This document shows, one piece after another, positions 1-5,231 of a DNA stretch of 64,000 bases. The stretch comes from Diplonema papillatum. Lineage: Eukaryota > Euglenozoa > Diplonemea > Diplonemida > Diplonemidae. The stretch lies in the NCBI GenBank assembly GCA_030068145.1, contig JAPJBO010000215.1, positions 124,001 to 188,000 of the forward strand, in the 5' to 3' direction. The position numbers were made by a program, and so were the translations under genes. Every line of letters begins with the position of its first letter. The first letter of the stretch is position 1. The notes under the pieces were generated by a model, which was given only the letters and a program-made list of their open reading frames with translations, did not search any database and was not told where the DNA came from.

Positions 1-9
1 AGGTCTACA

Positions 10-236
10 ACACACACACACACACACACACACACACACACACACACACACACACACACACACACACACACACACACACACACACACACACACACACACA
101 CACACACACACACACACACACACACACACACACACACACACACACACACACACACACACACACACACACACACACACACACACACACACACACACACACA
201 CACACACACACACACACACACACACACACACACACA
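10..236. repeat. (CA)n microsatellite, left flank of YR element 1
   Basis: Uninterrupted CA dinucleotides from near the window edge up to the first base of the retrotransposon. The same repeat resumes at 5107, directly after the element, so the two tracts look like one microsatellite split by the insertion. Confidence 0.97.
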
Positions 237-424
237 TACTAGCAAGCTTGCTTGAGCGCCGAAGGCGCGTCTAGTGGAATCCCATTTCCGTTTCCACCAT
301 TTGACGTACGCGATGCCTCCTATTTCCACTCTCTAAGAGGTTGGACAGGGGTAGTATTACGCAAACATCCAGGCCGTTTCCCTCTCCGCTGTTTGTACTC
401 CCCCTTCCCCCTTTCCCGTGTGCC
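237..424 (+). repeat. A1 terminal repeat of YR element 1
   Basis: This 188-bp segment starts at TACTAGCAAG directly after the CA tract and recurs at 4758-4945. It ends four bases before the gag ATG, so it probably holds the promoter and leader. Confidence 0.9.
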
Positions 425-428
425 CAAA

Positions 429-2829: not shown

Positions 2830-4530
2830 GCTCCGCGTGAACCGGACCTGGCGCGCGTCTTATTCGGCGACGGACAAATCTTCTACAGCCGAGATGAGTT
2901 CTTGGACTTTATCTACACTCAGCTGCTCCCTTTTTTGTTGTCTTTCAACAAACAGGGTGGGCCCCGGCCGCCGGGTGCTCGCCTGGATGATTTCCCGATT
3001 GGGGTGATCTCTCGCGACGAGGTCGTGCGGATGGCTGTTGAGACGGGGGTTGACCCGACCTTTGTGGATATACTGCGGGACAGCAACGCTTTCAGACAGG
3101 CTGTGGTGTCGCCTGCGCGTCTCCCAGGCCCAGTGACGCGCCTTCCGCCCGAGTATGTAGCTCAGTGTGTGGAGCAAGGTGTATCAGTTTTGAAGAAGCG
3201 CAGCGAGCCTGTTCGGGCTGTAGTCTCTCTTTTTGATGTACCGAAGAAGGACCCGATGGTGAGACGTCTCATCGTCGACGGCAGACCCGTCAACGAGACC
3301 ATGACACGGCCCCCGCGTTTCAAGCTACCTGGCCCCCACGACCTTTCGGTCTTGATCTTGTCTTCGGGATTCCGTTGGGCCGCCAAAATCGACTTTCGCG
3401 GGTATTTCCATCAATTCCCGCTTGACGAATACAACGCATCGTTCTTTGTTTTTCGCGTCGGCTCCAGCTGGTATCGTTGGGTTAGGATGCCTATGGGTTG
3501 GTCTTGGGCGCCTTTTGTTGCACAGAAGACGACGGAAGTCATCATGGGACCAGATCTTCTGCAGGCCGGTGCCGCTTGCTACGATGACGTGATTGTACTA
3601 GGCACCACACGCCAGGATTGCAAGGACAGGGTCGCCCTGTTTCTGAGTAGAGCATGTCGAGCCCGTGCGGAGATCAACGCACAAAAGAGTGTATTGTGTC
3701 CCACCCAGCACATTGAGTACCTTGGGATCGAGTGGGACCTGAAGCTGCGAGTGTTTCGTCTACCCGACTTGTGGCGGAAAACCGCCGCAGACAACATCGA
3801 CCGGCTCATTGCCCTCCCGCTTGTTACAGTCAGGCATGCTTGGTACATCGTCGGTTGCGTCGTATGGGTATGCTATGCCACCGGGCGGTGGCTGAGTAGA
3901 TATGTCGAGGTCCTCACTTGGGTGCGGGATCGGGCGACAAAGATTGGAAAGGGTGAACTTTCCTGGTTGTCGTGCCAGCGATTGCCATCTGGTTTCCGTG
4001 CTGACATTGAGCGCTTTCTGGCCGTGCTACGTTCCTCCGATTGGTTCCCGCCGAGGCTAAAGCGCCCCGAGTTTTTTGATTGCGTGGTATGGGCCGATGC
4101 GAGCAAGAAAGGTTGGGGTGTGTGCTACAACACGGCGGTCTCCTCGGGGGCCATCTGGGGCACTTGGCAGACCACTGAGGACATTTTTCACTTCGAGTTA
4201 CGAGCCGCTCTCAGGGCTCTCTGTGTCGTGCGAGACCAGGGCGCGTCCGCCCCTCTTGTCCTAACCGACAACAGAGCCGTATTCCACGTACTCAACAAGG
4301 GACACTCCGCCACGCGGCTCGCGAATCGGCTGCTCACCGAGCACGCACATATTTTTTCTTCTTTCACCGGGGGTTTCCGTGTGGGTTGGCTACCGACCGA
4401 CAGGATGCCTGCAGATCCTTATTCGCGAAAAGGAACTTGCGGACACGACTCGTTCCGGGTCTGCCACGAGGGCGTGCAACGCCGTGACGGAGGTTTCTCC
4501 GTCGATGGTTCGGTAGTGGTTCTCGTGTAA
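2830..4530 (+). CDS. Reverse transcriptase-RNase H of YR element 1
   Basis: The frame carries a DIRS/Ngaro-class RT. The fingers motif is PKKDPMVRRLIVDGRPVN (about 3241), then KIDFRGYFHQFPLD (about 3388), MPMGWSWAP (about 3489) and the catalytic YDDV at 3580-3591. RNase H follows, with acidic sites in WADASKKGWG (about 4090), FELRAALRA (about 4194) and LTDNRAV (about 4261), and a C-terminal WLPTDRMPADPYS. The protein makes element cDNA and removes template RNA. No in-frame ATG lies between the YR stop and the start of the RT domain, so it is probably made by -1 frameshifting or splicing from the YR frame; the start given is the first codon after the YR stop. All catalytic residues I can identify are present. 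Confidence 0.9.
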   Translation, partial: APREPDLARVLFGDGQIFYSRDEFLDFIYTQLLPFLLSFNKQGGPRPPGARLDDFPIGVISRDEVVRMAVETGVDPTFVDILRDSNAFRQAVVSPARLPGPVTRLPPEYVAQCVEQGVSVLKKRSEPVRAVVSLFDVPKKDPMVRRLIVDGRPVNETMTRPPRFKLPGPHDLSVLILSSGFRWAAKIDFRGYFHQFPLDEYNASFFVFRVGSSWYRWVRMPMGWSWAPFVAQKTTEVIMGPDLLQAGAACYDDVIVLGTTRQDCKDRVALFLSRACRARAEINAQKSVLCPTQHIEYLGIEWDLKLRVFRLPDLWRKTAADNIDRLIALPLVTVRHAWYIVGCVVWVCYATGRWLSRYVEVLTWVRDRATKIGKGELSWLSCQRLPSGFRADIERFLAVLRSSDWFPPRLKRPEFFDCVVWADASKKGWGVCYNTAVSSGAIWGTWQTTEDIFHFELRAALRALCVVRDQGASAPLVLTDNRAVFHVLNKGHSATRLANRLLTEHAHIFSSFTGGFRVGWLPTDRMPADPYSRKGTCGHDSFRVCHEGVQRRDGGFSVDGSVVVLV

Positions 4531-4554
4531 CGACTAGGATGCATCGCACATAGT

Positions 4555-5108
4555 TCCGCTGTTTGTACTCCCCCTTCCCCCTTTCCCGTGTGCCGCCCAC
4601 GCGGCCCTCTTCTCCTTGTATTGCCGGCCGGCCGCTTTTCCTCGATAACGGTGCTTTATCCTTTTCCCGCCTTTTAGTCCTGAGTTCTCCCACTGCGAAC
4701 CATGCCACAAGCGGTCCAGAAGCTCGAAGGACCAGAAACGGAAAGAAAGGGATTCCATACTAGCAAGCTTGCTTGAGCGCCGAAGGCGCGTCTAGTGGAA
4801 TCCCATTTCCGTTTCCACCATTTGACGTACGCGATGCCTCCTATTTCCACTCTCTAAGAGGTTGGACAGGGGTAGTATTACGCAAACATCCAGGCCGTTT
4901 CCCTCTCCGCTGTTTGTACTCCCCCTTCCCCCTTTCCCGTGTGCCGCCCACGCGGCCCTCTTCTCCTTGTATTGCCGGCCGGCCGCTTTTCCTCGATAAC
5001 GGTGCTTTATCCTTTTCCCGCCTTTTAGTCCTGAGTTCTCCCACTGCGAACCATGCCACAAGCGGTCCAGAAGCTCGAAGGACCAGAAACGGAAAGAAAG
5101 GGATTCCA
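4555..5108 (+). repeat. B1-A2-B2 terminal repeat block of YR element 1
   Basis: B1 (4555-4757, 203 bp) is followed without a gap by A2 (4758-4945), which runs into B2 (4906-5108). B1 and B2 look identical. The B1/A2 boundary reads ATTCCA|TACTAG. The element's outer ends are CACACA|TACTAG on the left and ATTCCA|CACACA on the right, so a CA dinucleotide is shared by the internal junction and both outer junctions. Confidence 0.9.
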
Positions 5109-5231
5109 CACACACACACACACACACACACACACACACACACACACACACACACACACACACACACACACACACACACACACACACACACACACACACA
5201 CACACACACACACACACACACACACACACAG
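5107..5231. repeat. (CA)n microsatellite, right flank of YR element 1
   Basis: CA repeat starting within the last two bases of the element and running into a LINE-derived reading frame at 5232. Confidence 0.97.

Follow-up and report, generated by a model that had tools for sequence, protein, structure and literature searches.

We analysed a window of 64,000 nucleotides from Diplonema papillatum (contig JAPJBO010000215.1, positions 124,001 to 188,000 of the forward strand, assembly GCA_030068145.1), which carries a tyrosine recombinase (YR) retrotransposon within a CA microsatellite and, further along, a second one within a GA microsatellite; the annotated parts of both elements and their flanking tracts lie on the plus strand. 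The first element (236-5108) has the layout A1-gag-YR-RT/RH-B1-A2-B2 and is embedded in (CA)n, with a (CA)113 tract at 11..236 as the left part of the target and a (CA)62 tract at 5107..5230 as the right part. Its split direct repeats consist of A1 (236..424) and the identical A2 (4757..4945), each 189 bp, and of B1 (4555..4757) and the identical B2 (4906..5108), each 203 bp, with A2 and B2 overlapping by 40 bp. This pyrimidine-rich overlap, where A ends and B begins, occurs at 385-424, 4555-4594 and 4906-4945, and is positioned like an R region for template transfer. The left end of the element reads (CA)n-CA-TACTAGC and the right end GGGATTC-CA-(CA)n, while the internal joint at 4749-4764 reads GGGATTC-CA-TACTAGC, with a single CA and no tract. 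A preliminary description had placed a YR retrotransposon inside (CA)n, with the tract stopping at the left end and resuming in the last two bases, and with CA at the internal B1/A2 crossover; the tract coordinates, open reading frames (ORFs) and split repeats confirmed each of these points. Its broader statement that CA is present at every junction held for the family of the window element, but not for a related family, F6, whose joint is CCAA/CCTAG (the slash marks the crossover), nor for the GA family, which has no matching dinucleotide.

The ORFs are ordered gag-like, YR and RT/RH in three different frames, and these open frames, considered independently of start codons, overlap one another, including YR with RT/RH. 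The gag-like ORF (429..1850, 473 aa) was assigned its role by position and had no significant family match in Pfam. The RT/RNase H (2827..4530, frame open from 1621) matched RVT_1 (4.4e-13), with a match to RVT_3 (0.001) that falls under the RVT_3 cut-off. The putative YR (1850..2827, frame open from 1352) carries HSFRRG ... RRY near its C-terminus and matched Phage_integrase in Pfam at 0.0088; a match to this family at ≤0.1 was found in all five CA-lineage members, the best at 7.9e-6. As a single sequence, the window YR had no match in PDB, and a YR profile gave eight matches at E ≤ 10, of which three were integrases, with HP1 integrase at the top (E 0.069), and the other five were unrelated. 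We set aside an AlphaFold model of the YR built from five sequences (pLDDT 44, pTM 0.32). The YR assignments are thus weak at the level of sequence.

An RT/RNase H and a probable tyrosine recombinase in one element place it among the YR retrotransposons (order DIRS), and the gene order with overlapping YR and RT/RH frames, the split direct repeats (A1 ... B1 A2 B2) and a SIRE-type A-B derivative are those of VIPER-like elements. Ngaro-like elements have the order gag, RT/RH, YR; we rejected this identity because YR precedes RT in both lineages described here. A methyltransferase domain is given as a PAT / DIRS1-like feature in the available part of PMC4157794, and no methyltransferase match was found by Pfam in the element ORFs, which is a weak test of that membership. 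Rfam at gathering scores gave no match across the window. In the portions available of two accounts of VIPER and SIRE (PMC6681497, PMC12278014), these elements have the order gag-like, YR, RT/RH, split repeats A1 ... B1 A2 B2 (173 and 219 bp in T. cruzi), short A-B elements that correspond to A2+B2, and no target duplication. The Diplonema element thus resembles these kinetoplastid elements in gene order, in split repeats of similar size, in its solo A-B form and in the lack of duplication, but differs in its target, as no microsatellite specificity is described for VIPER or SIRE in those portions.

Elements of the CA lineage occurred in three forms: the full form A1-ORFs-B1-A2-B2 (window, C831, L162, L163 and L164), a form A-ORFs-B without A2B2 (C149, C148, C241 and L165), and a solo A-B form of ~350 bp, of which the copies read lie in CA tracts. 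One CA tract can hold several elements, as at C77, C33 and C333. Four retrieved families (L162-L165), whose RT and YR are 54-89% and 66-86% identical, respectively, to those of the window copy, keep the CA target, and a fifth (L166), in a copy cut by the contig end, has (CA)89 at its left end. Two oppositely oriented solo A-B copies at C138:102189-108133 have a common left flank and (CA)7 with different right flanks, and C763 has the same left flank.

Other repeats were also present in the window. The stretch at 5231-6123 is what remains of a different retroelement and includes an RNase H-like part (RVT_3 at 0.077 in the window and 0.00033 in L147, both below the cut-off); it too is bounded by CA tracts, with (CA)160 at 6125-6444. 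The 3' end of this remnant forms the left flank of several YR insertions (C1382, C1962, L079 and L087); elements of several types are thus found in CA tracts. Long minisatellite arrays with 185-bp and 38-bp units lie at 45658-49575 and 53063-55829; an uninterrupted frame of 1372 codons runs through the first, and its family matches look spurious.

To place the window copy in context, we searched the 271-Mb assembly for the 22-base left end of the element and found 958 matches at ≤3 mismatches, and 405 at ≤3 mismatches for the left end with (CA)6 in front; as the two queries differ in length, these counts do not form a strict ratio. For a strict comparison we took the first 100 listed exact left ends, which were sorted by contig and not by flank. 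(CA)6 directly preceded 81 of these, and we read all of the remaining 19: six lay at short or imperfect CA tracts (five imperfect or short, and one ending in TA, L088, which our script had labelled "other"), and 13 were B/CA/A joints (12 called by the script, with L084 having a truncated B, and one in the C33 patch). None of the 100 was in unrelated sequence and none was in TG orientation. By comparison, (CA)6 occurs at 322 of the 128,000 strand positions of the tract-rich window (0.25%), so the placement of left ends directly after CA tracts is not due to chance. Similar results came from 30 contig patches picked because they resemble the window element and its ends, in which 38 of 47 left ends were in CA tracts, eight were internal or abutting joints and one had an imperfect CA-rich flank, and in which 36 of 44 right ends continued into CA and eight were joints. 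The tabulation of flanks, which covers part of the copies (the first 100 listed exact left ends and the 30 patches), strongly bears out the earlier suggestion that CA microsatellites are the preferred sites, and no copy in random non-CA sequence appeared among those 100.

Tracts at the ends of nearly all copies read would also be expected if the tracts belonged to the element, either carried as CA ends or spawned as a microsatellite by the insertion. We addressed this by searching the genome with the joined flanks of eight insertion sites (of 13 extracted), scoring 40 of 4822 candidates. Both flanks were found side by side elsewhere for one of the eight sites, C149; for the other seven, no second locus with both flanks was present among the candidates listed. 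(The right flank of C11b is a repeat with some 40 places among those listed, and that of C608 was absent from the listing even at its own locus.) At C149, one host segment is present in three tandem copies, the flanks of which look identical as printed, and only the middle copy is filled. Copy 1 reads flank-(CA)51C(CA)59A(CA)10A(CA)27A(CA)8-flank and copy 3 flank-(CA)88A(CA)8-flank, both with no element, while copy 2 reads flank-(CA)55-element-(CA)93C(CA)8-flank. The simplest reading is insertion into one of the three copies, and precise excision from two copies is possible instead; under either, the tract is not the element's own. For C149 at least, the tract is thus a target that the element does not carry with it, and neither duplication nor loss of host sequence is visible at the site, in agreement with the earlier expectation that insertion leaves no extra duplication. 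An origin of the tracts from the element is exceedingly improbable: the two empty neighbours keep their tracts (unless both are excision products retaining an element-borne tract), the joint has a single CA and no tract, left tracts range in length between 7 and 207 units in the copies read, and 2709 (CA)11 tract starts were counted genome-wide in one phase. A comparison of window 6010-6444 with C100 was rejected as a paralogous empty site; the left flanks agree closely by eye, but the right side of C100 is rearranged.

The second element of the window (35401..39662), recognised from its sequence and ORFs, has the layout A-gag-YR-RT/RH-B without A2B2 and lies between (GA)33 at 35334..35399 and a (GA)n tract at 39664..39839, the left and right parts of its target. 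Its RT/RNase H (37737..39398) matched RVT_1 at 3.1e-5 (24.2 bits, cut-off 29.6) and is 27% identical to the RT of the CA element (E 9e-37). Its candidate YR (36532..37737, frame open from 36334) carries HAFKRG ... ETY, with a Phage_integrase match of 0.17 and a sole PDB match to integrase 5c6k (E 1.1), and barely aligns with the YR of the CA lineage. As a YR retrotransposon, this lineage thus has an RT that is clear by comparison with the CA element and a YR that is weak. A 193-bp unit at 35141-35333 lies between two GA tracts, and a near-identical start (AACACAT.AAAACAAGTC) was found beside other GA-family copies (L097, L102 and L157); this unit is possibly another short GA-targeting element.

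The left end of the GA family had 440 genome matches, 249 of them with a GA run in front at ≤3 mismatches. Among the first 20 listed exact left ends outside loci already in our set, 16 adjoin GA runs (13 perfect over 12 bases, others down to four units), two are at GA-rich purine runs and two are outside GA sequence. At loci picked in part by the joint query, 17 of 21 non-joint right ends run into GA; the other four (L099, L105, L107 and L161) are without a tract and were scored as misses. The base before GGATC was G in all 14 GA-run ends with the usual terminus, whereas L137 and L141 have altered termini. One GA-family solo copy (L139 and L161; C41:299330-300075) has no GA tract on either side and represents an off-target insertion. 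A free GA run in a repeat paralogue was not retained as evidence, being only suggestive: of the two copies read, C403 has one and C47 has none.

The placement of two lineages bears on whether tracts are merely tolerated or accessible, with sequence-unspecific insertion followed by purging of copies elsewhere, or with insertion into open chromatin. Such an explanation would fit the other retroelement type, with the RNase H-like 3' part, that also borders CA tracts in this genome, but we consider it highly unlikely. Orientation and register are fixed, with CA and never TG at the 100 left ends of the one lineage and the invariant G at the 14 left ends of the other, and the CA and GA lineages pick different repeats.

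The GA family also bears on how the target is matched. We had predicted the GA circle joint by fusing both element ends with AG between them; this prediction had 25 genomic matches at 99%, all of which lacked two of its bases. The copies read carry the joint GAAGTTC/GGATCAAG, with no AG in it, and TTC/GGATC has no GA or AG at the crossover. The preliminary description had proposed that the CA joint recombines with CA dinucleotides, that is, a conservative double-strand exchange whose specificity is set solely by identity between the two joint bases and the target. The window family has the CA that this model calls for at its joint, left end and right end, and matching over a 3-bp joint is the published model for DIRS1-like elements in the available part of PMC3266345. 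As the whole cause, we nevertheless judge it unlikely. CA dinucleotides are everywhere and yet only tracts are seen to be used, so more than dinucleotide identity must read the tract, and the GA family homes to (GA)n without GA at its crossover (TTC/GG against a target of AG/AG, in which the first base differs). Random resolution of a GG/AG mismatch predicts that about half of the ends read AG/ATC, and one (L141) was found among 16 GA-run ends, which may be a mutation. We did not accept L141 as a trace of mismatch resolution, as its right end was not reached.

We then folded the joints as single strands. Three joints gave -18.5 (z -5.0), -14.1 (z -4.3) and -19.1 kcal/mol (z -5.2), and none of 200 shuffles of each folded as well. 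In the predicted stem, the final 20-24 bases of B are paired with a segment that lies some 40-62 bases into A, with 14 to 22 pairs per joint; the stem encloses two inner hairpins in the CA families and one in the GA family. In the window, the B1-A2 joint at 4734..4819 has 19 predicted B-A pairs and two inner hairpins, with the crossover CA at 4756-4757. The predicted folds of all eight joints leave 2-3 consecutive bases unpaired, no more than a few bases 3' of the crossover. Across these eight, 20 of 24 offsets had at least two Watson-Crick pair types, falling to 15 of 24 when the GA family is left out, and G-T pairs made up 3 of 157 pair cells; these counts use each joint's own predicted fold and so lean to pairing. 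A test by exchange of B ends does not have this lean: when B ends were swapped among five lineages the stem was weaker, and the true pairing of B ends with A starts ranked first of 120 permutations. When B was shuffled, 0-1 of 500 shuffles folded as well for each of the eight joints. These joints are not all independent, as F1/F1b, F2/F4 and F3/F6 are close and F4 was assembled from its two ends. In both lineages the joint is therefore predicted to form a long stem, in which changes in one arm are compensated in the other from family to family. The A region at ~320-350 of the window (CCACTCTCTAAGAGGTTGG) is predicted to form a further hairpin (CCACTC ... GAGGTTGG) containing a two-base bulge, and the six CA-family joints that we folded have this hairpin in their A regions as well.

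The predicted stem is absent at both inserted junctions, with F1 going from -32.9 to -16.1 and -5.4 kcal/mol. Insertion into the tract would thus abolish this stem, and its loss would tip the balance from excision towards integration. The stem could instead correspond to paired recombinase binding arms in a duplex circle, or could have a structure or role in the RNA. It is also a tentative possibility that the joint acts as a folded single-stranded cDNA, an attC-like hairpin whose shape is recognised by the YR and of which one strand is exchanged with the dinucleotide tract; the tract, as non-B or easily opened DNA, and not the core sequence, would then be the target. In the accessible part of PMC2727003, the tyrosine recombinase acting on integron attC sites uses a folded single strand with unpaired bases and little sequence conservation. 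The joint, by prediction and covariation, likewise combines a stem and unpaired bases with a structure that is kept while the sequence is free, with the difference that attC is bacterial.

Taken together, we consider it very probable that these are two diverged VIPER-like YR lineages specialised for (CA)n and (GA)n, in which the recombinase integrates a folded or arm-bound circle joint into the tract. The placement in tracts is specific in orientation and register, one copy has empty sites, the split repeats contain an internal B-A joint, and the predicted stem covaries. Reverse transcription would give a circle carrying the B-A joint, and the element's own recombinase would exchange this joint with one repeat boundary of the tract. 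Integration would then create the junctions B/(tract) and (tract)/A at the two sides of the element and would duplicate no host sequence. Tract specificity would come from how the recombinase complex reads the repeat and not from the two joint bases alone; we infer that recognition probably lies with the recombinase complex or with tract structure.

The homing of YR elements to tandem repeats is of a known kind. TATE of Leishmania braziliensis, a VIPER-like element, forms tandem clusters at a fixed position in GGG/TTA telomeric hexamers, as described in the available portion of PMC6681497, and is the closest precedent as a YR retroelement at one fixed point of a simple tandem repeat. It differs in its telomeric hexamer target; here, the targets are dinucleotide tracts, with two lineages on two repeats. 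Togen, a non-LTR retrotransposon specific to (TG)n in the part available of PMC4640811, shares a dinucleotide microsatellite target but has no recombinase and no circle joint. For DIRS1-like elements, the proposed integration model is recombination between a short circle joint and target bases identical to it, without duplication; these elements differ in their inverted terminal repeats and in a 3-bp, mostly NTT, joint, and no tract targeting is described for them in the accessible text (PMC3266345). Our search of the open-licence literature gave no report of a YR retrotransposon that resides in dinucleotide microsatellites or has a folded or covarying joint; the original descriptions of Kangaroo, TOC, PAT, Ngaro and VIPER lie outside that search. 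Non-LTR elements insert by an endonuclease, and to our knowledge the integration chemistry of the YR-retrotransposon group is little studied.

Strict target choice was described almost only in non-LTR retrotransposons as of 2013, according to the available part of PMC3706591. Here, two diverged recombinase-based retrotransposon lineages in one genome show strict target choice for two dinucleotide repeats, and this use of two repeats by two lineages separates target choice from core homology. The covarying predicted stem at the joint offers a concrete, testable att site for the group, and if the folded-strand reading were true, structure-specific YR recombination would have a eukaryotic counterpart carried by retrotransposons. 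Finally, microsatellites that collect elements in this way may be safe harbours and a source of tract-borne arrays.
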